Of a DNA stretch of 64,000 nt, positions 42,574 through 59,258 are shown piece by piece. The stretch comes from Pteria penguin (Eukaryota > Mollusca > Bivalvia > Pterioida > Pteriidae), in NCBI GenBank assembly GCA_035048485.1, contig CM068584.1, positions 62,540,420 through 62,604,419 on the forward strand. The letters are read 5' to 3'. The translations under genes and the position numbers were made by a program. The notes under the pieces are model-generated. The model worked only from the letters and a program-made list of their open reading frames with translations, made no database searches and was not told the origin of the DNA. Within the stretch, counting starts at the first letter, position 1. The number at the start of each line of letters is the position of its first letter.

Positions 42574-44015
42574 GGGAATGGGAAGATGGCTCCGTAAACC
42601 GATTGACCAAACCAATTGATTGACTTATATTATATCAAATATTCTAATAATTTTGTGATGTCTTTGGTGGGGAAGGGGTTGGTGTGTGTTATTGGATTTT
42701 TTGTTTGTTTGGTTTTTTTTGGGGGGAGGAGGGGGGTGGGGGTTGTATTATTTTTCTTTTTGGGGGGGGGGGTTGTTATTTGGGGTTTTTTTCATAAACA
42801 TTATATTTAAAAAATATAAAAAATATATTTGTAAACTTTTTTTTTCTTCCTTCAGTATGGGGGTTCCCCCAATCTCTACAAAATGTACAAGGAGGTCTAC
42901 ACGATGGGATGGTTCAACAATTTTTTTTTTTCGGGGAGGGGGATGGTCTTTAAACTTCTTAATTGTTTGCCAAAAGTATGATGTTACTTGTGGGTAGTCT
43001 GACCTATATGCTTTTTTTCGGTTTGATCGTCAATATTCCATTGGTGATACGGATCATTCAGTTGGAATTCCACTCTACAGCGTTATGTAATCTTTTTATG
43101 AAGAATTGTCTTCTGACTAAACGGAGATTATATCACCTATCACATTGTTATCATATGGCTTGTCATCGGAGTTTATGGTTATAAAGTTGTATATCTTTCA
43201 ATACATTTCTGATGAGAACCTTTGCAAACCAAAAAAAAAAAATAAAAAAACAAAAACAAAAAGACAAAAAACAGAATAATTATAATAGACAGAAATGATT
43301 ATTGCATTTTATTTAAGTCCAAGTTGTGCAGAGACATGTAATACAAAATTAAATGCAAATCCTAGATTAAGAAAATTATTTTGTAATGACAAAAATGGAC
43401 GTCAAGACTTAGTGTATTTTCCACTTAAAGAGCTTGAGAATATTTCATAGAATGAAAGAACTGTATTGACAAACTGTTACGCAATTGGGACCACACAAGC
43501 AGATATGAAGAGGGATACAAAGGAATACGTTACCCAATGTTTGTACGGGATTGGACAAAGTTAGAAAAGTAACAATGTGGTATAGGAATCGAAAAGCTAA
43601 GTGTTATTCAATATTTGTCATTACTACCAAAAGGATGGAATTGCAAAAATTATTCAATACTTTACCAGCACGAGAAAAATGATATTTTGAACCTCTTAAA
43701 TCATTATACAAAAATGTTTAACATAGGGGAGACGATACATGTCAGTAGTCTGACCGAAAGACTGGAACGGTAAGAAAAAATATAATTTCCTGTTTATTAA
43801 TCAATAGTACCACTGGTAATATGGACACATTTCTAGGAGTGATTGAGTATTGCTTTACGTCACTTCAACATTATTTCGGCGTATACGGCTACGGCATCTG
43901 CCTGATTGATGCCACTGTATAGAATTATTTACCTTTGTTTCAGGACCAACCAGGAGCACTGAGTGACTTTGTAACGTTGCCACGCCTACCCTGACACGGA
44001 ACTTTCGGTTTTTTA
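42574..44015. repeat. Array unit 7, truncated by gap
   Basis: Starts with the unit marker and continues to the middle of the minus-strand SINE (43836-44015), where the assembly gap begins. The ankyrin exon expected about 60 bp further on would fall inside the gap. It shares the 43.2-43.8 kb subtype with unit 5. Confidence 0.85.
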
Positions 44016-44515
44016 NNNNNNNNNNNNNNNNNNNNNNNNNNNNNNNNNNNNNNNNNNNNNNNNNNNNNNNNNNNNNNNNNNNNNNNNNNNNNNNNNNNNN
44101 NNNNNNNNNNNNNNNNNNNNNNNNNNNNNNNNNNNNNNNNNNNNNNNNNNNNNNNNNNNNNNNNNNNNNNNNNNNNNNNNNNNNNNNNNNNNNNNNNNNN
44201 NNNNNNNNNNNNNNNNNNNNNNNNNNNNNNNNNNNNNNNNNNNNNNNNNNNNNNNNNNNNNNNNNNNNNNNNNNNNNNNNNNNNNNNNNNNNNNNNNNNN
44301 NNNNNNNNNNNNNNNNNNNNNNNNNNNNNNNNNNNNNNNNNNNNNNNNNNNNNNNNNNNNNNNNNNNNNNNNNNNNNNNNNNNNNNNNNNNNNNNNNNNN
44401 NNNNNNNNNNNNNNNNNNNNNNNNNNNNNNNNNNNNNNNNNNNNNNNNNNNNNNNNNNNNNNNNNNNNNNNNNNNNNNNNNNNNNNNNNNNNNNNNNNNN
44501 NNNNNNNNNNNNNNN
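44016..44515. other. Assembly gap of exactly 500 N
   Basis: 500 unknown bases. The exact round number suggests a placeholder gap, so its true length, and the number of further array units, is unknown. Confidence 0.98.
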
Positions 44516-47245
44516 AGTAAGCATCGCTATATATATAAATAAATAAATAAATAAATATACATACCTTACAGTAGCAAGTTCAGTAGAATTGAACATACCA
44601 TTCTCAGATCTACTGACCTGCTTTCTAACAGACTCAGCAACGGAGACTTTATTACCCGCCAACAGATCATTCAACATTACAACTCCAAGCTTTCTGATCA
44701 ACAGAATAAATTCAATCGTGATGGAATAACAAATGTTCCATCTACATATGGCTCGCCCAGCATCCTGCAGAATCCTTCCAAACGTAGACATAACAAATAT
44801 TTTAGGCGACATCGGAAGCACATCACAGCCGTCAAAAGTGCCCCCCCCCCCCCCCGTTGCTTAAGAGGATAAGCGGGAAGTTCTTAACCTTTCCGATTTT
44901 CCTCTGTCAGACAGCGACAAGAAGCTTCTTTCCAAGGGACTCACCTTCTGTCCTACCCCGAGAGTTGTTAATGAAAGAGCTGTCAGGGAGTATATCCGCG
45001 CCTTCGACGTCTACCGAATGCGAGGAAGATGATCAATGTGATAGTCATGAGCCGAATCCCTTCGCTAAAAAGAGTACATGGGAACCTGGAACCAGTAAAT
45101 GTGGAGCCCTAGATTAGCTCCAACCCGGGTCGAGTTAAAGACAAATTGGACAAGAAGAAGAGGAAAAGTTTACAAAGCCTCAAAGACAACGAGTCAATCG
45201 TCATCAAAAAAGATCTACTGTAGTTGTTATGAACAGGTCCGATTACATAAAAGAAGCTAACAAACAGCTCTCTTGCCCTTCTTACTACACTAAACTCGAT
45301 ACTGACCCCACGTCCGCAATTGCTAAGACTAACGCAGCAGATTTAGTAAAGATGTGTGATGCAGGTGAGATTGATGAGGACACTTTAATTACCTTTGCCC
45401 TACAAACTGTAGGCCAGGTCAATTTTATTTGCTTCCCAAAATCCACAAAAAAGGCATCCCTGGCCGTCCCATCGTCAGTACTATTGGTCATCCCACTGAG
45501 AAAATATCACAATTCCTAGACTAACATCTGCGTCCACAAGTTGTGCGGTTACCATCATATCTCAAAGACACAACGGATTACACTAATAAAACACCTAGTA
45601 GTAGTTTACTACCCGGCATCCTCCTTGTAACCATGGATGTCACCTCTTTGTATACCAATATCCCTCCCGACGAAGGGATAGAAGCTTGCAGAAAAGTGTG
45701 GGATTCGAGGCAAAACAAAAAGCCCTCCACCGAGTCTCTGGTAAATCTCCTTGAACACACACTCAAACTTAACAATTTCATGTTCAACGGAGAACATTAC
45801 CTCCAAATCAATGGTACATCCATGGGAACCAAGATGGCGCCCTCATACGCTAACATCTTCATGGGTGACTTAGAAAAAAGCCAGTCAAACCTATGAGTTG
45901 GCTTCGTTTTATTGATGACATTGAAATGAAATGGATAGCTGGTAGAGAGAATCTGGATGACTTTTTGCCAACAAGTTTTATCCTTCCATAAAGTTCATGG
46001 TTGATATTTCTGGATACCAGATCAACCCTCCTGAACGGAAATATAATCCTTGATCTTTACAGTAAGACCACTGATTCTCACCTCTACCTTAGGCCCGATA
46101 ATTGTCATCCTCCCCATGTCTTCGAAGGCATCCCGAAAAGTCTAGCCATTAGAGTACTGCGAATATGCTTGACCGATGACATGTATCGCACCGGGAGCTT
46201 GGAACTAAAACAGAGACTTTGCCACAGATGCTATAATAGGAACTCCGTTGAAAGAGCTCTTTCCGATGCCAAGTCCATTGGTAGAACTAATTTGCTCGAA
46301 TACAAGATCAATGACGCTGCACCGAGTATACCATTGGTCACCACCTTCCATCCATCTCTACTAAGACTATCCCCCATTCTACATAAGCACTTACCTACTC
46401 TCCTCAAATCCAAGCGGCGTATGACTAAGGTCATTCCGTCCCCCCCCCCTTCCAGGCTTGACAATCCGTTACCTGTTGGTTCATTCACAACCTGCAACAA
46501 CAAACGCTGCAAAACCACAAAGCTCTCTTGCAAATCCAAAAATGTGGTGTACCTAATCACATGCAGAGTGTGTAAGAAACAATATGTCGTGGAAACAGAG
46601 GATGCGCTCAACATGCGAGTAAATAACCACAGGTCGTCCATCACCACTAAAAATGCATTTACCTGTGGGTAAGCATTTTAACAAGGTTGATCACTGTTGG
46701 GAGGATATGATGGTTGTGGCCATAGACCATAACATTATGTGGACGACAGAAAACAAGAGTTGACGAAGAAAACTTTTGGCAATTCGCGCTTAAGTCCGTA
46801 GAACCTAATGGTCTCAACAAACTGATGGATGTCTACCAAATGAACAAAAAATATTAAACACTTGTCCTGTTGACTTTGTACTTACACCCCCACACCCTCC
46901 TTTTTTCTATTATTTATTTATTTACCTTCGCTGTGTTTTCTCATTCATTTTATCCTTTCTCATTACACTTTCAATTCTCAGCACTCTTATTACACTTATT
47001 ATTAGTCATATTACAACATGAATGGGTCAAGGCAAACCGCACACTAGGTGTCGCCCTATTCCCCTATGACCACGATATCAGATAAAGGCCTGGTTATTTT
47101 ACAAGCAAGCAAAATGTAGCTGACGCCCGATATCACCGCTAAATTAGACTAGTGCTTTCTATATAGTTTTTTTTTCTCATATTTCTATTCATGTAGTTTT
47201 TTATATTGTGTTGTCCAGAGGCAGGGGCAGATCGCCTCGAAAATT
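44516..47245 (+). mobile_element. Penelope-like element, lineage B, plus-strand copy
   Basis: It starts at the gap edge, so its 5' end is missing. It includes the N-terminal region (about 44560-45230), RT blocks (about 45400-45960), a linker, a GIY-YIG endonuclease remnant (about 46530-46640) and a 3' untranslated region. It ends near a GCCTCGAAAATTGGAC motif (about 47230) beside a TA microsatellite. The frame is interrupted by several indels. It differs in sequence from the lineage A copies in the left part of the window. Confidence 0.75.
44860..46856 (+). pseudogene. PLE RT plus GIY-YIG polyprotein, frameshifted
   Basis: Conserved RT blocks appear in order: a [14 protein letters not shown] block near 45425, [11 protein letters not shown] (45633-45665), [20 protein letters not shown] (near 45810-45870) and RFIDDIE (45904-45930) at the catalytic site. 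The C-terminal part (46001-46672) contains the conserved HPSL-LSPIL-KHLP segment, a CNNKRC cysteine motif and the endonuclease signature VVYLITC-VC-KQYVVETEDAL. The last glycine of the usual YVGET is valine. Frameshifts near 45480-45540, 45890 and 45970 show a dead copy. The enzyme pair would nick chromosomal DNA and prime reverse transcription there. Confidence 0.8.
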
Positions 47246-47246
47246 G

Positions 47247-47249
<3 letters not shown>

Positions 47250-47316
<67 letters not shown>
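47250..47316. repeat. (TA)n microsatellite
   Basis: Uninterrupted TA repeats of about 66 bp, lying exactly between the 3' ends of two oppositely oriented PLE copies. Confidence 0.9.
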
Positions 47317-47319
<3 letters not shown>

Positions 47320-47470
47320 CACAAAAAAAGGAAATTGTAACAACATTCACTATTCATAAGTATCGGATCAACCTCAATGAAGGCTAATGCAAATCGCTCG
47401 AGAAAAAGGGGTCAATATAAAAGCACAGGTAAGCGATAACGATACTAAAACAATTAAAAAATTGCCAAAT

Positions 47471-47999: not shown

Positions 48000-48760
48000 T
48001 AATATAGGATGCTGGTGTCAATACTTCTTGTTCATCAAAAGGACATCTGACACTTTGTTTAGACCGCTTGGTTCTAGAGTGTGAAGCCTATGTTGCCAAA
48101 AGCCCTCTTTCGCCACTCGGTCATCTACTGTCCACATCGCACTATGGTCAATGGCCACAACAATCATGTCCTCCCAAGAATGGTTGTCCATGTTAAAATG
48201 CTTGGCTACTGGCAGATGCATTTTCTTGGTTTTGATGGACGACCTATGGTTGTTCACTCGCATGTTTCAAAGCATCTTCTGTTTCCCCAACATACTGTTT
48301 TTTACAACACCTTGCATGTGATAAGGTAAACCACATTTTTGGATTTACAGGAGAGTTTATCCAAAATCTTGTACTCCTTACCGGTTACAGAACTTTTGAA
48401 GGTGGATGTAGTGTCTGAGTGGGGGCACAGCTTGCAGCGTTTGTCATTGCATGTTGTGAACGAACCAATTGGTCGTGGATTGTCAAACCTTGACCTGACT
48501 ACATGATCTTTAATACTTTTAGGCTTTCTGTAGGCAACCATAGGAGGTGATGGGATGGCCTTCGCCATACGTTTGGAATTGTGGAGGGTAGGCAGGTGCT
48601 TGCGTAGGATTGTAGATAGGCCTTGCAAAGCTGGGTGGAAGGTGATGACTAAAGGTATTCTGGGGGCAGTGTCCTTAGTTTTGTATTTCAGCAAATCTGC
48701 TCTACTGGTTGACATGGCATTGGAGATAGCTTTGTCAACGGAGTTCTTATATATTGGTTT
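48000..48760 (-). pseudogene. PLE C-terminal/GIY-YIG remnant
   Basis: The minus-strand translation starts near VDKAISNAMSTSRADLLKYK and continues through a CNDKRCKLC cysteine motif and GKEYKI-LSCKSKNVVYLITC. In another frame follows KKQYVGETEDALK, then RVNNHRSSI, then KHFN and the conserved HSWEDMIVVAIDH block. YVGET is intact here, unlike the plus-strand copy. At least two single-base frameshifts (near 48290 and 48250) break the product. Confidence 0.75.
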
Positions 48761-48851
48761 TTTTTTTTTTTTTTGGTTTTTTGTTTCTTTGGGGGTTTTT
48801 TTTTGGGGGGGGGTTGTTTGTTTGTTTGGTTTGGGTTTTATTATTATTATT

Positions 48852-48918
<67 letters not shown>

Positions 48919-48946
48919 CTATATATATATATATATATATATATTG
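48754..48946. repeat. T/G-rich run and (TA)n microsatellite
   Basis: T and G homopolymers and TTTG units (48754-48840), a short ATT run, then about 90 bp of TA repeats with a few interruptions. Open frames of YI repeats here are artefacts. Confidence 0.85.
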
Positions 48947-49597
48947 GTTTTTGGGGGCTGGTTTAATTTTTTTTTATCAATTGTTTGTTAGAAACTAAAC
49001 TTAATCAATAAACAACGGGTAAAATATCATTTCTTCTTGTTATTCTCGGATGCGCAATCGTTTTATTTATTCCTTTAACTATTTATTCATTTATATTTTT
49101 CTGTACATTTATTTGATTCTTTCTTATATTTCAAAATTGAAATTCATGCCAATTCTATTCTAAACCTATGTGTATAATATGAGAGAGAGTGGTGAAAACA
49201 ATTGATATATTCTTGATTGAAAATTGAGGTCAAAGGGCGACACGACCTCTTTTTCTCCGGGACTCGTCTTTATTGAAAAAATATCATAAGTATACATGTT
49301 TTTATCATGAGAAGTTGTAGGTGAAAATGGGATGTTTAAGTGGCTAATAATCTTTAAACAAATAATTTTCTAATGTAGGTATGTAATTTAAGTATTTATT
49401 GATACATAGGTTTTCTACTAAACATGATTTCCTACTTTTACCATCTGGTTTTCCTGGCGTTATCCCTTCCAAAAATCATAGATCAGCCACAAATTTCTGT
49501 TCGAATACATACATGAATATCAATTTTAATTACGTTGTAGATCGGAACATTCATGAATACAGACCTTTTCACGAAGAGTGTATATTAACAGTACAGG
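48947..49597. other. Putative upstream region of the membrane-protein gene
   Basis: AT-rich sequence before the first coding exon. A second possible start (ATG at 49424, with a hydrophobic stretch MISYFYHLVFLALSLP) soon meets a stop and cannot be joined in frame, so it was not used. No core promoter was identified with confidence. Confidence 0.35.
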
Positions 49598-49922: not shown

Positions 49923-49965
49923 ATGATGGCTGTTACAAAGGAGATACAACTGAGACACATAATAG
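49923..49965 (+). pseudogene. Exon 2, 5' part, cut by Gypsy insertion
   Basis: After acceptor CTTGTAG the frame reads (Y)DGCYKGDTTETHN and is then interrupted by the retrotransposon LTR at 49966. The phase matches the end of exon 1. Removing the element and one ATAG target copy leaves an open frame for three more codons to a GTAATT donor at 59259. That would make a 51-bp exon with phase 1 at both ends. As assembled, the gene cannot give this exon normally, because 9.28 kb of antisense retroelement lies inside it. Confidence 0.5.
49962..49965. repeat. Target-site duplication ATAG, left copy
   Basis: ATAG directly before the left LTR, matched by ATAG directly after the right LTR at 59247-59250. 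A 4-bp duplication is within the Gypsy range and shows the insertion junctions are intact. Confidence 0.85.
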
Positions 49966-50993
49966 TGTAATGCCGATCCTCAATGTAACCGAGCGGAAGT
50001 TATATTTTTATGAAGTAGGGATCTCATTACTGGGGATCGTCTGGAATTGGCTTGAGGTCACACTTCTTATACATTACCAATGAATCACAGAGGCATTTGT
50101 TATTACTTGTAAAGTTTTATTTTGTCATACCAATTGACATACATTAGATCTACTCATTTACTGAATTACTGAACAATTCATGAAAATATCTATTAGAGAT
50201 TGACCAGTGATGGATCGTCAAATATCGGCAAATTTTGTCAAACTGTCAATGTCAGTTTATAACTGAGACAAATGAAGACTCCTATCAGACACTTAGCCTA
50301 ATATATATAAGTTATTTATATACTATAATGCATTTGACCACTGTGAGTAAAATTCAAGGACATTTGGAATTCATGGATTTATGGAACTTATTTTAATTGA
50401 CAATTTGTCAAATAATTCATACCATGATATCTTTGTCCATAACTGCAATGGGCATCAAAGTTGATGGTTTTTCTAGAGATTCTGTAGTCTCTAAAGGTGT
50501 GTTGCAGTTCACTTGAGTGTTACAGTAGACACTGATCATAAAATGAACATCCGCGGTCTTATATACCCAGTGTGACGTCACTTATGACGATAGGCAAATG
50601 ACGTCACAACGCATCCAAGAAGATCGAAATAGTTTTCCTACGAGTTGGCTGATTAACTAGCGGTGCTTATGTCGATATGTCTTACGAGTCGATAAAATAT
50701 AATATTAAGGCTTATAAAAGAATTCGTCAAGCAGTAACATGATGATAATAATTACAGTAAGTCACAAATATTTAAACTTGGTCGTACTCTTGAGATGACA
50801 TGTCCCGAATATACGTAAATTGATCCATTACCGGTCGAGTAAATTCGAGCTAATATAATAAACATTTGGTATGATCATATCATTCTAAGTGTCAATAAGA
50901 CATATAGTAAAATATCATCAATGACAGATAAATTGAAATGTTAATACATAGAATTATTACATAAATGAACTAGTAAAACTGGCTGGCATTACA
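49966..50993 (-). repeat. 3' LTR of the Gypsy element
   Basis: 1028 bp, with 9-bp perfect inverted ends (TGTAATGCC and GGCATTACA). It lacks about 15 bp present in the other LTR (near 58498) and differs by only a handful of substitutions seen by eye. It contains two TGACGTCA sites (50573-50580, 50599-50606), TATATAAG on the minus strand (50558-50565) and AATAAA on the minus strand (50116-50121). Confidence 0.95.
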
Positions 50994-51008
50994 TAGCCCC
51001 CTACTACA
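50994..51008 (-). other. Polypurine tract of the Gypsy element
   Basis: On the minus strand GTAGTAGGGGGCTA lies directly before the 3' LTR. This is the position of the plus-strand priming site. It is short and contains pyrimidines, so the call is positional. Confidence 0.55.
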
Positions 51009-51323
51009 TAAATTTGGTCCCCAAATTTTTTTTTTTTTTTTTACAATTCACTATACATTTCAATTCAAATTAAAGCAGATATATACAACACATTAACGCT
51101 TACATTTCTGAAAGAAGAATAAAGTCAATGGCATGTGACGAATGGATGAATGCTGAAAGGTAAGCAATATGTATATATACATATAAACATAGAAATAGTA
51201 TAATACTAGATATATAATATTCAATAAACAGTTCACATAATTTGATAGAATGCAATAATTTTTCTAATTGTAGAACACTACTATACTACGCTTCACTTCA
51301 CTTCGCTTAATTTAATTCATATT

Positions 51324-52685
51324 TTAATTGTAGGTAGGCACATATCCATATGACCAGCTATACATCACCTGATGGATTTTCCTCAACACTTGCATTTCCA
51401 ATCCTTTACAGTTGTAAAACCTGGCTTCGGCTAGAATTTCATGCAAGTACCTCTGATCCCTTGGGAGAGTTTCCAGGTCGACCATGCATTTGTTTCTGAG
51501 GTAATTTAATACGAATCTAAAATGTGCTGATTCTCTATCGATGAAGTATACCGGAACATCATTAGATTGAGTCGGTTGGAATGGACTCTCTTCTTTTAGC
51601 ATCTGAGCCAGAATACAACTCTTATCTGCCATGAGGCTTGATTTTGAGGCTTGAAATCGTGTTCCTCCAACATTTAATATGATTTTACTATCCTGACTTT
51701 GTTGTAATTCTTCTAAAGTTGGAGTCTTGATGGGTATCCCCAAAAGGTAATTTCTTGATGGTGTCATAAGTGGTCCTGTTTCATTCAAGGTATATTTAGC
51801 TGTATTGATGGGTGTGTTGGATGTCGGATTGGTGGGTGTTGTGGTCGTGGAGGTGGTTGATGTGGTGTCCGAGGAGGTAGTTGAGGTGATGATGCAGGTA
51901 GTGGTATCTGTGATTGGTTCTGCATATAACGCTATGGTTTCTGAGGTCACTGTGCTTGTGTGGTTTGGTTGTTCTGTTTCAGTGTCTGTATCTGTGTCAG
52001 TAATGTACTCCTTCGACTTTGGTGTTCTTAATCTCCTATGTTCTCTTTGTTTTGCAGGGGAGTTAGCATCCAGCTCAATTTCACTAATATCTGACAGTGA
52101 AGCTGCCTTTTCCACTACCCTTCTATCTTTAATTGGTGTAATTGGAGGACTGGTGCTTAGGAGAGTGGTATCTCTGGTGATTGTGTTAACGATGGCCAAT
52201 TGGTCCTTAGTTCTTTTGGATGGTGATATTGATCTTCTTCTCTTCTTATTTTCTTTGTCTAAATGTTCCTCACTTCGTCTTTTGGTAACCCTCTCAGAAT
52301 TTGTTGACTGTACTAGATATGTCATTTGTTCTTCTCTTTTCCATCTACTAAACATTTGTTTGGCTCTTTCCCCTCTAGTTCCGTCAGGTGCCACAATTAC
52401 CCAGTCCTCTACTTTAAGGTCCCTGCATCCATGCCTATAATTACGCCTGGAAAAGGTTCTCGTGCATCGAGAACATATGTGGGTGAAGTGGGAGTGAAAT
52501 TCCTGTACATGGCGTATTCCACCATATTTGTCCTTGTACTGTGTCTGACATATTTTACAGCTATAAGTATTCTGTAATATAGAAAAGGAAACTTTTCCAT
52601 CGTTTCTTTTTGATTTCATTCCTGCTTGTAAGTTGAAAGTGTAAGTAAAATATCTAAAAGACAAGTTGCACTTTACTGAATCCAA
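51324..52685 (-). CDS. Extra Gypsy ORF: zinc fingers plus KCTD-like BTB/T1 domain
   Basis: An intact 453-codon frame follows integrase. The first ATG is codon 23 (52619); upstream codons are open but lack ATG. Near the N-terminus is C43-X2-C46-X12-H59-X4-H64, a C2H2 finger, then a C71-X2-C74-X10-H85-X-C87 pair. A lysine/arginine-rich stretch (about 130-160) could be a nuclear signal, followed by a Thr/Ser-rich linker (about 160-320). Residues 334-433 look like the BTB/T1 domain of KCTD proteins: ILNVGGTRF, FIDRESAHFRFVLNYLR and EARFYNCKGLE. KCTD-type domains oligomerise and often act as cullin-3 adaptors. Its position is where env lies in retroviruses, yet no signal peptide or membrane helix is seen. 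Possible roles in chromatin targeting or protein turnover are inference. Confidence 0.85.
   Translation of the reverse strand: MDSVKCNLSFRYFTYTFNLQAGMKSKRNDGKVSFSILQNTYSCKICQTQYKDKYGGIRHVQEFHSHFTHICSRCTRTFSRRNYRHGCRDLKVEDWVIVAPDGTRGERAKQMFSRWKREEQMTYLVQSTNSERVTKRRSEEHLDKENKKRRRSISPSKRTKDQLAIVNTITRDTTLLSTSPPITPIKDRRVVEKAASLSDISEIELDANSPAKQREHRRLRTPKSKEYITDTDTDTETEQPNHTSTVTSETIALYAEPITDTTTCIITSTTSSDTTSTTSTTTTPTNPTSNTPINTAKYTLNETGPLMTPSRNYLLGIPIKTPTLEELQQSQDSKIILNVGGTRFQASKSSLMADKSCILAQMLKEESPFQPTQSNDVPVYFIDRESAHFRFVLNYLRNKCMVDLETLPRDQRYLHEILAEARFYNCKGLEMQVLRKIHQVMYSWSYGYVPTYN
52620..52660 (-). promoter_or_regulatory. Possible splice acceptor before the extra ORF
   Basis: On the minus strand a pyrimidine-containing stretch ending TTACAAGCAG lies two bases before the ATG-containing GAATGAAATC, and CTTGTCTTTTAG occurs a little earlier (near 52651-52662). 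Either could be an acceptor for a subgenomic spliced message. This is positional inference only. Confidence 0.3.
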
Positions 52686-52702
52686 TGTTCAGGCAAAGTT
52701 TT

Positions 52703-53311
52703 CTATAAGTAATAAATTTTCAGTTTATCATGATGTACAATTCTGGGTTTAGCTTTTGAATTCAGCTGTATTTTATATATGATATCATTTATTCTTTTAA
52801 GAACAACATAAGGTCCCTTCCAGGGTCTGTCCAGCTTTTTGCTTTTTCCCTTTTTACATATTGGATTATAGTACCATACTTTATCTCCAACATTATAGAT
52901 ATGTTGTGATATTTTATTATCATAGTTTCTTTTCTGGACACCACTAGCAAATGTCATACGTTTCCTAGCTATTTCATGTATTTGTTGTATTTTGTCAGCT
53001 AAATCACATGCAAAGATTGTACTGTCCATCTGTGAATCTATGTTTGAAGTCAGAGGTCGTCCAAAAACAAGATCAATGGGCAAAGTCATCTCTCTTCCAT
53101 ACATCATGACGCTTGGTGACATACCAGTACTCTCATGCACAGAGGAATTATAAGCCATGGTAAGCACAGATAGATAAATATCCCAATCATCTTGATTATT
53201 TGACACATAATTTGACAACATATTTTGGAGTGTACGATTTGCTCTCTCTACAAGTCCATCTGATTGTGGTCTCATAGTTGTTGTTCTTGTCTTATGTGAA
53301 CCTAAAATTCT
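52703..53311 (-). pseudogene. Gypsy integrase, C-terminal part
   Basis: Continues in the same frame as 53312-53755 after one TGA codon. It carries the third catalytic residue, Glu, in SDGLVERANRTLQ, then AYNSSVHESTGMSPSVMMYG, typical of Gypsy integrases. Near the end is the GPY/F module (RPWKGPYVVLKRINDIIYKI), which is involved in multimerisation. No chromodomain was recognised. Its stop precedes the extra ORF by under 20 bp. Confidence 0.85.
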
Positions 53312-53755
53312 TCACATCTCTTGAAATATTTCAGACTCAAAACAAGTACCTTGGTCACTGTGAATCTCCATTGGTACCCCATACAGAGTAACAAAATACT
53401 GAACAAAACTTTTAGCTATTGTTGCATCTACATTTTTAACTGGTACTGCTACCAACCACTTGGTAAAGTAATCACAAATAACAAGAATGTATTTGTTTTC
53501 TTCCTTAGTCTTAGGTAATGGTCCCATTATATCTAATGCAACTCTTTCGAGCGGTGCACCAACATTATACATTTTCATCTCTGACTTTGGTTTTCTAAGG
53601 GGCATTTTTCTAGATGCACATATTTCACATGTTTTACACCATCTCTCAACATCTCGTGAAAGTCCATACCAATAAAATCTGTGTTTGACTTTGTTGATGG
53701 TCTTCTTGACACCTAGATGACCTCCTGTGGGTGCATTATGCAGTTCTTTCAACAC
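53312..53755 (-). pseudogene. Gypsy integrase, N-terminal and core part, ends in premature TGA
   Basis: Contains the zinc-binding HHCC region (GGHLGVKKTINKVKHRFYW with the CKTCEIC cysteines) and two catalytic aspartates (VALDIMGPLP and EIHSDQGTCFES). An in-frame TGA at 53312-53314 follows FQEM, and the same frame continues beyond it to the catalytic Glu. The open frame extends upstream past 53755 to about 53822, where a one-base shift separates it from the RNase H part. The enzyme would insert cDNA into the genome, but as written it is split. Confidence 0.85.
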
Positions 53756-53822
53756 AACATTTCTTAATTCATGTGGCAGAATGATTTGTAAACAATATTT
53801 CTCTGAATTTACACTCTCTAGT

Positions 53823-54782
53823 TTATGACATAAGATGTTTATTTTCTATTATCAAGGAATCAAACCTATTCCAGTAGAATTTAAACTCTACAGGCTTGTG
53901 TGCTACTTCAGTCCATGTTGGCTTCTTGGCATTTTGTACAAAGCAAATTAAGTCTGATATAACTTTGTCATCTCTCTGCAAACGTTGCAAGAATTCCATA
54001 TTCATTTCTCCTAAGTGACTAATATTGTCAATACTTCTCATTTTTCCAGACCTTAGTATTAGGACATCATGTCCATCACTTGTGACCTTTGTGTTAGTAG
54101 TTTTTGTATTATGCACATCTGCATTTAACATACTAGAAGTGCCAGCACATACTTCACTAGGAAAACTCTCAGTTCCCACAGTGCTTATTGTATTAGAAGT
54201 GCTAATTGTTGAACAATTATCGTACCCAACTTCCTTTTTACACGTGGCATCTGGAACACAAATTGGAGCCTCTTTATCACTTAAAGAGTTGCTGCTTTTA
54301 TTATCAGGATAAGAATATGTACTAGAGGTGCCTGTCATTACAACACAGGAATTTCCAACCTCTTTTGTAACAATTTTATCCTCCTCTGGTTTATCTGAAT
54401 TCTCATGCTTTCTTTCTACACGATCGCAGTATTTACAATGACTTGCCACACATGGTCGCCTTGATAAACTATCTGCATTATTATGTATTCTGCCTGCTCT
54501 GTGTTCAATTTTGAAATCGTAAGTGGCTAGAAGTTCAAGCCATCTTGCCATCTGTCCCTCTGGTCTTTTAAAATTAAAGAGCCATCTTAGAGCTCCATGG
54601 TCACTTCTGACTAGGAAGTGTCTACCATATAAGTAATGATGAAATTGTTTTACTGCCGAAACCACTGCCAGAAGTTCTCGTCTAGTAACACAGTACTGAC
54701 GCTCTGACTTGGAAAAGCACTTGCTGAAATAACATATTACTTTCTCTTGCTCATTTTGAATTTGAGACAGAACTGCACCCAT
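53823..54782 (-). pseudogene. Gypsy RNase H and linker
   Basis: RNase H features: Glu in RRELLAVVSAV, Asp in VRSDHGALRWL and Asp in NADSLSRRP. The first catalytic Asp (LDTDAS) lies just upstream of 54782 in the same frame, after an in-frame TGA at 54819-54821. A long, variable linker of about 180 residues follows RNase H before integrase. It starts with CKYCDR and is rich in Ser/Thr/Lys. RNase H removes the RNA strand from the hybrid during cDNA synthesis. Confidence 0.85.
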
Positions 54783-54828
54783 GCCAACATTACTGGCATC
54801 TGTGTCTAAAATAAAGGTTCAATTGTCC

Positions 54829-55137
54829 TTAGGGTATGCTAAGATAGGAGCTTTTGATAAGGCTACTTTTAGTTTTTTGAAATGCATTCTGACAGGAATC
54901 ATTCCATACAAACTCTACTTTCTTTTCTGTCAGTTTATGTAATGGTTTAGCAATAGTAGAGAAATTCTCTACAAACTTCCTATAATATGAACATAAACCA
55001 AGAAAACTGCGTACATCTCTCACATTTCGTGGTGTAGGCCAATTAATGACATCCTTGACCTTTTTCTCATCTGTGTGTACACCATTTTCACATATTACAT
55101 GACCTAAAAATGAAACCTCTTTTGTAATAGAGAACAT
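54829..55137 (-). pseudogene. Gypsy RT thumb/connection segment
   Basis: In a frame shifted relative to 55104-56612, it contains SFLGHVICENGVHTD, WPTPRNVRDVRSFLGLCSYY and KPLHKLT, the conserved segment after the RT palm in Ty3/Gypsy elements. The shift occurs near 55115, where one A appears to be missing from a short run. It stops at 54829 and a further shift leads to the RNase H frame. Confidence 0.85.
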
Positions 55138-56612
55138 TTCTCTGGATTGACCTTGAGATTTGCTTCTTTTAATCGTTGAAACACCTCATTTAGATTTTCA
55201 ATTTGCTCGTCAAATGTTTTTGAAAACACTATTATGTCGTCAAGGTAGACAAGACATTTTTTCCAAGTTAACTTTGTTACTATTTTTTCCATTAGTCTCT
55301 CAAAGGTTGCAGGACTATTACATAAGCCAAAGGGCATGACCTTGAATTGCCAGAGACCATAACATTGGATAGAGAATGCTGTCTTGGGTCTATCGTCCTT
55401 AGCCACTCCTACTTGCCAGAACCCCGACTTCAGGTCCAAGGTACTAAACCATTTGGATCCTGACAGTGCGTCTAATGTATCGTCAATCCTTGGTAAAGGT
55501 TGACTGTCTTTTTGGGTTATATCGTTTAGTTTTCTATAGTCACAACAGAATCTAATAGATCCGTTGGGTTTTGTAACCATAATAATAGGGCTACTCCAAG
55601 GTCCAGAGGATGGTTCTATTACTCCTCTTGAGGCCATGTTTTTAATTTCATTCTCTGCAGCAATACGCTTTGAGAGAGGAATTCTATATGGGGGTAACTT
55701 TACAGGCTTGGAGTTTCCTGTATTAATAGTATGTTCTACTATAGTTGTATGGCCTATGTCATCTTCTGACATTGAAAATAAGTCTGTATGAGACAAAATA
55801 AGATTTTTCAATTTCCATTTTTGTTCTTCAGTAAGGTGGTCATGTTCTTGTAGAATAAGTTCTTTTAAAGGTCCTGGTATCTCATTTTCATGACTATTAT
55901 GCCAAGACTTAGTCTCACAACCACTACTTAAGGTATTCACAATCTCTGCCTTTTCAGCACTTGCAACAATAGTGTTAGGGTACAAAGTATAAGGTTCTTT
56001 GCTAAAATTAGCCACTCTTAAAGGATTTTTTGTCTGTTCACTATTGACTAATACTTTTCCCAATAATAAACCACTTTTTTCTACAAACTCAGGATTTGCT
56101 TCTATAAAACACATACTGTTTATGTGATCAAATTGTCCTATCAATTTTCCTGGAACAACCATTTCAGTCTCTGCAGGTATCACAATTTTTTGTGATACAG
56201 CCACTTTACAACATAGGAATTCTTCATCATTGTGTTTATCAAAAGGAATATATTCTCCATTGAATGACAAACATTTCTTAGTTGTCAAAACATCAATGCC
56301 ATGTTGTAAAATAAAATCTCTACCAATTATTCCATCATCTTGAATATCAGCTAATAAAAATTCTTGATTCATTTTCTGTTTACCAATTTGAAACTTGAGA
56401 GTTGTCTTCCCTTTAAAACATGCAATTTCATTAGTAGCAGTCTTAAACTTCATATTGACAGGAAATATAGGGAGATTCTGAGGGTTACTCATGCTTAATT
56501 TATCAAACATGTCCTTTTTCAAAATAGTGACACTTGAGCCTGTGTCAATTAACATGGATACTGACACACCCTCTACTAATGTAGACAGATAGAATCCCTC
56601 AGTTTTTCCCAT
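55104..56612 (-). pseudogene. Gypsy protease and reverse transcriptase
   Basis: Starts with an ATG at 56612, in the -1 frame relative to gag. The aspartic protease active site is DTGS at residues 23-26, with IIGRDF as the flap-side G-D block further on. RT blocks: PPYRIP, GVIEPSSGPWSSPIIMV, FCCDYRKLN, FSTLDLKSGFWQV, MPFGLCNSPATFE, and catalytic YLDD at residues 456-459. The frame ends prematurely after residue 502 by a one-base shift near 55115. Protease cuts the polyprotein and RT copies RNA to DNA. Confidence 0.9.
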
Positions 56613-56626
56613 AGTGGTTCTGACAT

Positions 56627-57742
56627 TTACTGTTCCTGTGTGGGACTTTGGAATTGTTGTCGAACTTCGCCCCTTAAATTCGACACTTCCCTGTTTGATT
56701 CACGGTTATTTTGATTTCCTTGATTATCAGAAGAGTATCTCCGGTTTCCTCTCCACCTATTTCTGTTATTGTTCCTAGGTCGAAAAGAATTTTGTCCCTG
56801 TCCGTGGTTATTTTGGGATGAGAGATTATTCTCACTTTTGCCTTGATTATCATTTGACTGAATTTGACTATTTCTGTCAAATCCTGACTTTGATTCACTT
56901 TGTTTCATACTGTTCACCTCATGCAAAAGTCTTGCCACCTCTTTTTTTATTTGTTGCAGATCATTGTCACCTGAGTCACTATTTCTGAGATGATCTATGG
57001 AGGCTTTATTCCTGCTTTTGTCAGCAATTCTGTGAGCTTCAAGTCTCACAGCTATCTTTTCAGCTTCTCCAATAGTCTTAGGTCCTACTTCTCTTAGTCT
57101 GAGTCTGATGTCAGAGTCACTGAGAGCATCTATGAAATAGTCAATTGCAAGAATGTCTATGACTTCAGATGTTGCACTTGGATAGGCTTTACGTGTCAAT
57201 TTTCTTATACTTTGAGCTAATTCTGGAATTGACTCATTCATGCTTTTGACACGACTTTGTAATTTTGACCTATAAACTTCAGCTTTGTTTACACTACCAA
57301 ATCTAGTATTGAGAGATTCTACTAGACTGTCGTAATCTCTTCTTTTTCTGTCATCAAGTTCATTTAAAAGAGCTCTTGCTGGCCCTGTTAAGCTGCTTGC
57401 TAAATACAGAGACTTAGTTTCATAATTCCATCCATTAATCTCAGCTATAATATCATACTGAGCTAAGTAGTCCTCCAAGTCTTCGTTCCCGTCATAGGTC
57501 TGTGTTTTTATTTTTGATGATTGGGGTCTTATGTCCATTGCATCTCCTATTCTAATTGGTGTACTATATCTTACATGTTGCCCCTCATTTTGATTAATGT
57601 TTCTAGACCTATGAGGTGGGGATGGACTTCTACTTCTTTTATTCAAAGTATTTATTTCACTTTGCATTTCTAACATTTGTTGTTTAAATTCTACCAAAGT
57701 GTTTTTAATTTCAGATGTGACTGATCCTATTTCATTATTCAT
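56627..57742 (-). CDS. gag: Gypsy gag (capsid/nucleocapsid)
   Basis: A 371-residue frame. A coiled N-terminus is followed by the capsid-like core: YDGNEDLEDYLAQYDIIAEI, ARALLNEL, and YFIDALSDSDIRLRLREV, all typical of Gypsy Gag. The C-terminus is rich in Asn, Arg and Gln (RPRNNNRNRWRGNRRYSSD) and probably binds RNA. No CCHC zinc knuckle is present, unlike many Gypsy Gag proteins. An open frame from ATG 57891 (MDDSNVVTIRKPETNEDIE) leads towards gag but in a different frame, so the original start may be upstream, with a one-base shift near 57790. Confidence 0.85.
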   Translation of the reverse strand: MNNEIGSVTSEIKNTLVEFKQQMLEMQSEINTLNKRSRSPSPPHRSRNINQNEGQHVRYSTPIRIGDAMDIRPQSSKIKTQTYDGNEDLEDYLAQYDIIAEINGWNYETKSLYLASSLTGPARALLNELDDRKRRDYDSLVESLNTRFGSVNKAEVYRSKLQSRVKSMNESIPELAQSIRKLTRKAYPSATSEVIDILAIDYFIDALSDSDIRLRLREVGPKTIGEAEKIAVRLEAHRIADKSRNKASIDHLRNSDSGDNDLQQIKKEVARLLHEVNSMKQSESKSGFDRNSQIQSNDNQGKSENNLSSQNNHGQGQNSFRPRNNNRNRWRGNRRYSSDNQGNQNNRESNREVSNLRGEVRQQFQSPTQEQ

Positions 57743-58182
57743 ATTCAGAATTTGATCTTGTATTATTTGTAATTCTTGTCCTTGATTTAATATTCATATC
57801 TGACACTGATTCTTTGATCACTTATATCATTTGTTTCTATGTCTTCATTTGTTTCAGGTTTCCTAATGGTGACAACATTAGAATCATCCATAATGTACAA
57901 GTTTGAAGATATAACCACCAACTCCAGATATATTTCAATAGAATTTGACAAATAAAATTTGACAAATTGAAAATTGAGTTAATGCTTTGTTTAAGCTAAT
58001 CACAAAACTGTTAATACTTTTATAAAGTATTCTTATTTGTTGAATTAATAAATTTGTAATGTACAAATTACTTAGTCGTCAAATTTTTATTTTGACAACT
58101 TGTCCAATGCCAGATTTGACGTGTTGTCAAATTTTAAAATGAAGCTTTGAAAGTAAGCAGCTGTTCAGTCTTTGAAATATGA
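57743..58182 (-). other. Gypsy 5' leader
   Basis: Untranslated leader between the primer binding site and gag, possibly including a frame-shifted gag start at 57891. No other feature was recognised. Confidence 0.6.
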
Positions 58183-58201
58183 GATCCCACCGCTGCCACC
58201 A
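58183..58201 (-). other. Gypsy primer binding site
   Basis: On the minus strand TGGTGGCAGCGGTGGGATC lies three bases after the 5' LTR. It starts with TGG, complementary to the CCA end of a tRNA. The tRNA species was not identified. Confidence 0.65.
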
Positions 58202-58354
58202 AATTGTAATGCCGATCCTCAATGTAACCTAGCGGAAGTTATATTTTTATGAAGTAGGGATCTCATTAGTGGGGATCGTCTGGAATTGGCTTGAGGTCAC
58301 ACTTCTTATACATTACCAATGAATCACAGAGGCATTTGTTATTACTTGTAAAGT

Positions 58355-58360
58355 TTTATT
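58355..58360 (-). terminator. Possible poly(A) signal in LTR
   Basis: AATAAA on the minus strand, downstream of the TATA box by about 450 bp. The equivalent in the 3' LTR is 50116-50121, where it would serve for transcript ending. Confidence 0.4.
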
Positions 58361-58810
58361 TTGTCATACCAATTGACATACATTAGATCTACTCATTTAC
58401 TGAATTACTGAACAATTCATGAAAATATCTATTAGAGATTGACCAGTGATGGATTGTCAAATATCGGCAAATTTTGTCAAACTGTCAATGTCAGTTTTTT
58501 CCTAGCTGTTTTATAACTGAGACAAATGAAGACTCCTATCAGACACTTAGCCTAATATATATAAGTTATTTATATACTATAATGCATTTGACCACTGTGA
58601 GTAAAATTCAAGGACATTTGGAATTCATGGATTTATGGAACTTATTTTAATTGACAAATTGTCAAATAATTCATACCATGATATCTTTGTCCATAACTGC
58701 AATGGGCATCAAAGTTGATGGTTTTCTAGAGATTCTGTAGTCTCTAAAGGTGTGTTGCAGTTCACTTGAGTGTTACAGTAGACACTGATCATAAAATGAA
58801 CATCCGCGGT

Positions 58811-58859
58811 CTTATATACCCAGTGTGACGTCACTTATGACGATAGGCAAATGACGTCA
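58811..58859 (-). promoter_or_regulatory. LTR promoter: two CRE sites and a TATA box
   Basis: On the minus strand two perfect TGACGTCA palindromes (58852-58859 and 58826-58833) precede TATATAAG (58811-58818) by about 33 and 7 bp. CRE sites bind CREB/ATF-type factors, so expression may follow cAMP or stress signals. The same trio is in the other LTR. Confidence 0.65.
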
Positions 58860-59246
58860 CAACGCATCCAAGAAGATCGAAATAGTTTTCCTACGAGTTG
58901 GCTGATTAACTAGCGGTGCTTATGTCGATATGTCTTACGAGTCGATAAAATATAAGATTAAGGCTTATAAAAGAATTCGTCAAGCAGTAACATGATGATA
59001 ATAATTAAAGTAAGTCACAAATATTTAAACTTGGTCGTACTCTTGAGATGACATGTCCCGAATATGCGTAAATTGATCCATTACCGGTCGAGTAAATTCG
59101 AGCTAATATAATAAACATTTGGTATGATCATATCATTCTAAGTGTCAATAAGACATATAGTAAAATATCATCAATGACAGATAAATTGAAATGTTAATAC
59201 ATAGAATTATTACATAAATGAACTAGTAAAACTGGCTGGCATTACA

Positions 59247-59258
59247 ATAGTATAGAAA
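59247..59258 (+). pseudogene. Exon 2, 3' remnant after the Gypsy insertion
   Basis: Positions 59247-59250 are the second ATAG target copy. 59251-59258 supply the last bases of exon 2 before a GTAATT donor at 59259. With one target copy removed, exon 2 totals 51 bp and ends in phase 1, matching the acceptor at 61238. The donor is only moderate, and the alternative is that the frame reads through to a TGA about 16 bases further on. Confidence 0.4.

Follow-up and report, generated by a model that had tools for sequence, protein, structure and literature searches.

A two-finger ORF3 with a KCTD-type BTB domain in Gypsy retrotransposons of Pteria penguin

The long terminal repeat (LTR) elements Vesta, Juno and TelKA of bdelloid rotifers carry, beside gag and pol, a non-envelope third open reading frame (ORF3) which, in the part of the report on which we draw, is family-specific and diverse, its kinds being GDSL, DEDDy, env, and transmembrane or coiled coil (PMC5408684). 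These captured ORF3s appear to be the closest precedent for the gene of the bivalve Pteria penguin that is analyzed here. This gene lies in a stretch of 64,000 nucleotides (NCBI GenBank assembly GCA_035048485.1, contig CM068584.1, positions 62,540,420 to 62,604,419 of the forward strand), hereafter the window, within a Ty3/Gypsy LTR-retrotransposon, and combines a head of two zinc fingers with a basic, Thr/Ser-rich linker and a C-terminal BTB domain of the KCTD type. Captured ORF3s in LTR elements are known; a finger ORF3 with a KCTD-type BTB appears to be new and so, possibly, is a clade-wide modular gene. The words "BTB" and "zinc" do not occur in the main text of the rotifer report (PMC5408684), nor do BTB, KCTD, zinc finger and envelope in the main texts of two papers on bivalve transposons (PMC10294476; PMC8905726), and no title or abstract opening that we found in the open-access literature describes such an ORF3, Repbase and subscription papers being outside that search.

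An earlier note, made from the letters of the window, had pointed to an intact frame of 453 codons between the integrase and the 3' LTR and had read in it a C2H2 finger, a second Cys/His cluster, a basic stretch, a Thr/Ser linker and blocks of the BTB/T1 fold of KCTD proteins. The frame is indeed present, on the minus strand (51324-52685), and the plus strand over the same interval is full of stops. The TTG at 52685 is no more than the start of the open frame; translation from the first ATG, at codon 23 (52619), would yield 431 amino acids. All the named blocks are located in the frame, in the order C-X2-C-X12-H-X4-H, C-X2-C-X10-H-X-C, KKRRR, Thr/Ser linker and BTB blocks. The assignment of the C-terminus is borne out by Pfam, where BTB_2 (PF02214) matches with an E-value of 6.7e-16 (58.9 bits vs a cut-off of 21.4) and the classical BTB model (PF00651) stays below its cut-off, and by the PDB, where KCTD5 is the first chain found with the single sequence (5.3e-8). 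With a profile of nine element BTBs the PDB matches are led by KCTD5 (2.8e-18), followed by a Kelch protein (2.9e-18), SHKBP1 (1.9e-17), KCTD16 (3.7e-17) and KCTD9 (8.2e-17). Of 10 protein pieces from relatives, 8 match BTB_2 as well, and the two that do not are pieces that lack the C-terminus. The head is less readily identified by Pfam (E 0.75 for the first finger); all eight of its zinc ligands are invariant across the window, L009, L021 and L023, members of the four lineages aligned (L numbers denote loci of the same genome).

In Drosophila gypsy, the third ORF at this very place is env (PMC4276936, in the portion used here); the ORF3 of the window has no membrane segment. The position between integrase and 3' LTR would suit a divergent envelope or membrane protein, which we nevertheless consider extremely improbable: the domains are of intracellular type, no hydrophobic segment is found in the window ORF3 (maximum 19-residue Kyte-Doolittle value 0.68), and no transmembrane- or signal-like segment in the ORF3s of L009 and L023 (maxima 1.07 and 1.16). 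Envelope identity was rejected on this hydropathy, and ORF3, a separate frame between pol and the 3' LTR that is unrelated to env and retained in lineages, is by its sequence features a non-envelope accessory gene of a Gypsy LTR-retrotransposon.

Counts from the genome searches, in which the best candidates were scored, are lower bounds. The frame is open over residues 1-453 in at least eight copies, the window included, which are 99-100% identical, and there are broken copies besides; in 8/8 open copies a 3' LTR follows ORF3. Among 28 loci taken for an ORF3 match, integrase and BTB are both matched in 25, and BTB alone in L014, L018 and L020. The 25 were sorted by sight of their BTB letters into lineages A (window family), B (L009, L012), C (L010, L011, L027, L028), D (L017, L025), E (L023 and kin), F (L021, L022, L026) and G (L019), so that, sorted by eye, a BTB lies downstream of a Gypsy integrase in seven diverged lineages, whose integrase C-terminal stretches are 38-59% identical to that of the window. 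A private insertion into the window copy, which the earlier note had raised against its own reading, is rejected by the eight open copies and by the recurrence of the BTB in the seven lineages. Judged by sight only, L018, L020, L039 and L040 resemble KCTD and Kv genes of the host; among host-looking loci, L018 (36% identical) and L020 (35%) match the whole ORF best. The strict two-finger pattern is found in 4 of 15 BTB-bearing stretches (window, L009, L021 and L023) and missed in L010, L012, L013, L014, L017, L019, L022, L025, L026, L027 and L028. Several of the latter are broken, and tblastn recovers parts of the head in L010, L011, L012, L013, L017, L025 and L027.

Some further copies and fragments were observed in the course of these searches. 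L008 and L003 (G000:C5:42403399 and 42411590) are two ORF copies 8,191 bases apart on one strand, a spacing of about the internal region plus one LTR, and are possibly a tandem pair with a common LTR. Two lineage E ORF3s that are 100% identical lie 14.6 kb apart (G000:C12:42594702 and 42609288), and L029 (G000:C12:12317337-12318131) consists of three partial copies of the BTB part in a row, perhaps a satellite seed. L075 and L076 belong to a further repeated family of BTB-like fragments (LLPREP...EEAQFFALPG), and weak head-like matches are seen at C10:28803709, C10:27620972 and C10:4802722.

The head extends beyond the elements with BTB. We picked 14 related loci, mostly with long open frames and with integrases 37-43% identical, from 151 listed integrase matches. 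The element profile finds a BTB downstream of the integrase in 0/14 of them, and a strict two-finger ORF stands there in 10/14 (the pattern misses L081, L082, L086 and L091); controls with this pattern gave 0/14 on the opposite strand and 0/700 in mononucleotide shuffles. The 14 loci contain three near-copy pairs, so that about 9 of 11 families have the two-finger ORF. Because this ORF stands at the same place in relatives without BTB, the head may be older than the BTB, that is, the older ORF3 of the clade, with the BTB as one of several C-terminal modules. A profile of the head matches 7 of the 14 loci, with E-values from 9.6e-7 to 1.4e-3 in what is a very small search set, and it appears likely that BTB and non-BTB elements inherited the head from a common ancestor. 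One of the other C-termini, that of the two-finger ORF3 of L092 (755-2014, minus strand), matches GDSL/SGNH hydrolases (PF00657, 9.8e-6, 26.3 bits vs a cut-off of 23.6), and the two-finger ORF3 of L093 (666-1688, plus strand) has letters like those of L092 with no Pfam match. An acidic motif (EDISSDEDE and variants) is common to L083-L086, L089, L091 and L094; similar motifs (SDISEIEL, EEISDVEL and EDISDVEL, compared without a chance control) are seen in lineages A, B and C of the BTB elements, and not in L023.

GDSL/SGNH domains are also found among the rotifer ORF3s, which, as far as described in the portion drawn upon, differ from the present ones in that here the two-finger head recurs and the C-terminus varies (PMC5408684). 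A search of the open-access literature for Gypsy and SGNH led no further than a reference-list item on a Helitron. We hypothesize, as a speculation that is rather unlikely to hold, that an entire clade of animal Gypsy elements has a modular gene in the env position, in which a two-finger targeting head would be combined with swappable effectors: in one branch a KCTD ring recruiting CUL3 for the destruction of host silencing factors at element chromatin, in another an SGNH hydrolase, and in a third an acidic module. The head profile gave no match in L082, L086, L087, L088, L090, L092 and L093, which weighs against such modularity.

Relatives of ORF3 are also present among the proteins of other organisms. 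A search with a profile built from nine C-terminal stretches yielded 71 proteins, one with a three-lineage profile yielded a single protein and one with the whole ORF alone yielded none; the viral contigs searched contained no relative. The protein P0001 (ENA) is 61% identical over 140 residues, the pre-BTB motif included. Among the 27 best proteins (P0001-P0027), 12 favor an element lineage over all seven KCTD sequences compared, by at least 17 bits; their sources include Pinctada imbricata, Crassostrea virginica, Mercenaria mercenaria ("KCTD4-like") and Potamilus streckersoni. P0015 matches lineage E, linker included (39.6% over P0015 residues 1-240). Some of the proteins that are called KCTD-like in bivalve annotations are probably fragments of this ORF3. 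Separately, P0003, P0007, P0010 and P0014, bivalve proteins of which some are named KCTD-like or potassium channel tetramerisation, were seen to resemble ORF3 pieces more than host genes.

In an integrase tree of 35 rows (three of them unlabelled; the short rows L013, L022, L028 and L031 and the near-identical L001-L007 left out), the 18 BTB rows fall on one side of a branch, with weak support (61/47) and with long branches flagged. Presence of the BTB takes one change on this tree in 64% of bootstrap trees, and 0/500 shuffles are as low. Lineage F is not one group here, L026 joining L017 and L021 joining lineages E and G. In a BTB tree of 28 rows (hand-picked from the BTB matches, P0001 and human KCTD5, with part of the host-looking loci used), Kv channels split from elements plus KCTDs at 100/99, which places the BTB on the KCTD side, and host KCTDs form one group (88/76). 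The element BTBs lie between the Kv and KCTD rows. No bootstrap tree (0%) sets them apart by a single branch, yet as one clade they are not rejected (p-AU 0.227, approximately unbiased test). A single acquisition of the KCTD-type BTB is the simplest reading.

The earlier note had proposed that the element captured a host KCTD-like gene and fused it to a nucleic-acid-binding head. The KCTD-type BTB behind a zinc-finger head agrees with this, but the tree singles out no donor among host KCTDs, the best host-looking loci being 35-36% identical, and recent capture by the window element is unlikely to judge from the recurrence of the BTB beside integrases so diverged and from the two-finger ORF in relatives without BTB. 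On the former ground, recent capture was rejected.

In the window's lineage ORF3 is under purifying selection. Compared with the old broken copy L013 over 384 codons, the window ORF has 0.61 synonymous (dS) and 0.167 nonsynonymous (dN) substitutions per site, a dN/dS of 0.27 (Fisher 1.3e-18), with 0.33 for the head (73 codons), 0.27 for the linker and 0.16 for pre-BTB plus BTB; a neutral passenger is rejected for this lineage on the BTB value, the eight open copies and the recurrence in seven lineages. Between L010 and L011 the ORF3 ratio is 0.31, and between L017 and L025 the proportions of synonymous and nonsynonymous differences are 0.75 and 0.17, a saturated comparison.

With respect to expression, the stretch from the preceding stop to the head contains no Met in L009, L021 or L023, so a spliced start of ORF3 is likely. 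In splice scoring with approximate matrices, the best site near the head being chosen for each locus, the window's candidate acceptor is the best in the 260 bases before the head, and an acceptor-like CAG precedes the first finger in L009 (rank 15/624 of the AG sites), L021 (4/450) and L087 (2/226); in these four loci the acceptor-like sites lie 13-22 nt before the first head Cys and, as we read them, in phase 0. Since a donor-like site follows gag codon 56 in phase, the ORF3 protein could begin with the first 56 residues of gag.

Given that the head suits binding of nucleic acid or protein and the C-terminus oligomerisation, we tentatively propose, as close to an even call, that the ORF3 protein is a nuclear oligomeric adaptor in which the BTB docks a partner to what the fingers hold. 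Under this proposal, ORF3 would be expressed from a spliced mRNA, and the protein would enter the nucleus by its basic stretch and oligomerise through the BTB as KCTD proteins do; the likely ligand of the fingers would be nucleic acid or a host factor, and the BTB ring would likely dock the partner, possibly the CUL3 ubiquitin ligase. The head would be the older part of a clade-wide ORF3, the BTB an effector gained and kept by one branch, and the element would likely benefit by interfering, at its own DNA or RNA, with silencing or regulation by the host. According to the part of the survey consulted, the pentamer is the prevalent form of KCTDs, and 15-16 of them bind CUL3, chiefly via a variable loop (PMC10856315). 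With the contact running chiefly through that loop, CUL3 binding is not readable from sequence, and docking of CUL3 by the ORF3 BTB is, in our estimate, a possibility to be somewhat doubted.

The same anatomy would serve a CUL3-independent DNA-binding regulator that activates the element or counters its silencing; the fingers would bind LTR DNA of the element itself, and the BTB would do no more than multimerise the protein. Two fingers, one of them C2HC, are generally held to give little DNA specificity, and we regard this as an unlikely though serious alternative; it draws on the two-finger ORFs with non-BTB C-termini at the same place in the 10/14 loci, and on KCTD1, which, in the parts of the two sources used, represses AP-2alpha through its BTB (PMC3212892) and is a validated CUL3 non-interactor (PMC10856315). 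Less probable still is an integration tether or nucleic-acid chaperone, by which ORF3 would ride the pre-integration complex and steer insertion: the finger head, the basic linker and the recurring acidic IS[DES] motif are all compatible with it, but expression apart from pol is what we expect for ORF3.

A number of observations weigh against the adaptor proposal or its parts, or fail to support them. The element BTB profile that finds KCTD5 ranks Kv4.3, the best Kv channel (3.1e-13), ahead of KCTD7 (7.8e-13), and KCTD16 and KCTD15, which are not CUL3 binders, match it about as well as binders. Of eight KCTD7 contacts with CUL3 (PMC10856315, part consulted), mapped by a hand alignment with an inferred numbering offset of 8, four are kept or similar in the window, M76 (Ile), M80 (Met), D98 (Asp) and Y131 (Phe), and none of R65, D74, R84 and H85 is kept; KCTD5, a binder, departs at several too, so that this comparison points neither way. 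Single-sequence AlphaFold2 models are poor, with a predicted local distance difference test (pLDDT) score of 48.9 for the BTB and 42.2 for the head, too low for a fold search. No head match is given by tblastn in L014, L019, L022, L026 and L028, and no convincing acceptor is found in L023 and several non-BTB loci. Constraint is weaker in other pairs (dN/dS 0.53 for L009-L012 and L014-L019, 0.59 for L010-L027, 0.67 for L009-L033, 0.89 for window-L016, and 0.56, p 0.062, for the whole ORF of window and L024), and the eight open copies segregate just 6 silent and 7 replacement changes, too few alone to show selection. In lineage E, ORF3 dN/dS is 0.76-1.02 (L030, L031, L032 and L035 vs L023), compared with 0.14-0.20, on 6-11 changes each, for the integrase of three of these copies; here ORF3 is relaxed or unconstrained, or else fast-evolving (diversifying). 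Comparison of copies by dN/dS, a check suggested in the earlier note, shows constraint on ORF3 in the window's lineage and none in lineage E, and is suggestive only for the open copies. The values of lineage E are what one would expect if ORF3 were, at least in some lineages, a passenger, i.e., a captured host KCTD fragment of little or no use to the element. Set against the seven lineages, the eight open copies of the window family and the low ratio of its BTB vs L013, this explanation seems very improbable to us.

The proposed adaptor also bears comparison with host proteins. Sequence searches of Pfam and the PDB show ORF3 to share the BTB_2 domain of KCTD5, KCTD7, KCTD9, KCTD16 and SHKBP1; these are host genes, and the BTB of KCTD5 and KCTD7 is in the N-terminal half, whereas in ORF3 it is C-terminal, behind fingers and in a retrotransposon. 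ZBTB proteins have a classical BTB at the N-terminus and fingers at the C-terminus. Such factors, e.g., Mod(mdg4), likewise join BTB and zinc fingers in one protein and may act alike; ORF3 has the opposite order and a BTB of the KCTD type. In KCTD1 isoform b, as presented in the part of that study used here, a transposon (Crypton-derived) domain is likewise joined to a C-terminal KCTD BTB; there, a host gene took a transposon domain, whereas here a transposon carries the BTB (PMC3212892).

The element that carries ORF3 occupies 49966-59246 of the minus strand (9,281 bp; Table 1) and is of Ty3/Gypsy type by its paired LTRs, target duplication and domain order of protease, reverse transcriptase, RNase H and integrase. 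Its order is gag-position frame, protease/reverse transcriptase, RNase H/integrase, ORF3, 330 bases with no listed frame, and 3' LTR. No Pfam family is above its cut-off in the gag-position frame; RT_RNaseH is matched with an E-value of 1.1e-27. In the window copy pol is split into several frames, and in seven other copies the integrase lies within an open frame of 1,332 amino acids. The LTRs have termini of the TG...CA type (TGTAATGCC...GGCATTACA) and are 97.7% identical when gaps are included (7 mismatches, 3 gap openings); because they are near-identical and ATAG is duplicated on both sides, the insertion is likely recent. The primer-binding-site-like TGGTGGCAGCGGTGGGA may be the complement of a tRNA-Leu end. 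Elsewhere in the window, 45543-46672 and 48302-48856 look by eye like Penelope-like pieces, beside long AT arrays (47234-47327 and 48842-48949), and at about 44000-44800 an apparent ORF contains a run of N, a possible assembly gap.

Table 1. Features of the ORF3-bearing element in window coordinates.
Feature	Position	Strand	Basis
ORF3: two zinc fingers, basic Thr/Ser linker, KCTD-type BTB	51324..52685	-	Open-frame list, Pfam, PDB search, genome copies
Two-finger head, residues 43-87 (C43 C46 H59 H64; C71 C74 H85 C87)	52425..52559	-	Alignment of 4 lineages and pattern match
Basic stretch with KRR ... KKRRR (residues 135-158); by eye, like a nuclear localisation signal	52212..52283	-	
Acidic motif LSDISEIE in linker; resembles motifs of some other lineages, no chance control	52074..52097	-	
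Pre-BTB motif IPIKTPTLEEL	51705..51737	-	Similar in L009 and P0001
BTB_2 (KCTD/T1-type BTB), residues 335-431 of 453	51393..51683	-	Pfam PF02214, PDB KCTD5
3' LTR	49966..50993	-	LTR alignment
5' LTR	58205..59246	-	LTR alignment
Target-site duplication ATAG, 4 bp	49962..49965; partner copy 59247-59250	.	Flanks of LTRs
Primer-binding-site-like sequence	58185..58201	-	
gag-position frame, 371 amino acids	56627..57742	-	Frame list
Protease and reverse transcriptase frame	55104..56612	-	Pfam RVT_1 4.3e-37, Asp_protease_2 3.5e-8
Reverse transcriptase end and RNase H, separate frames in window copy	53823..55137	-	Pfam
Integrase, two frames in window copy	52703..53755	-	Pfam Integrase_H2C2 3.6e-19, rve 8e-10, p58_C 4.7e-11
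Candidate splice acceptor, exon start 52571, phase 0, 13 nt before first head Cys	52571..52572	-	Rank 14/650 AG sites
Candidate splice donor after gag codon 56, phase 0	57574..57575	-	Rank 9/491 GT sites

For gene annotation, the bivalve proteins that are probably pieces of ORF3 under KCTD-like names are of relevance. A KCTD adaptor recurrent in seven lineages and selected in at least that of the window would be evidence of regulators encoded by retrotransposons and aimed at host protein networks, and a modular gene, if real, would be the counterpart in retrotransposons to Vif, Vpx and other accessory proteins of retroviruses. ORF3 offers a testable protein for how LTR elements escape silencing, and, if the nuclear adaptor proposal is true, jumping genes keep host-manipulating proteins of their own.
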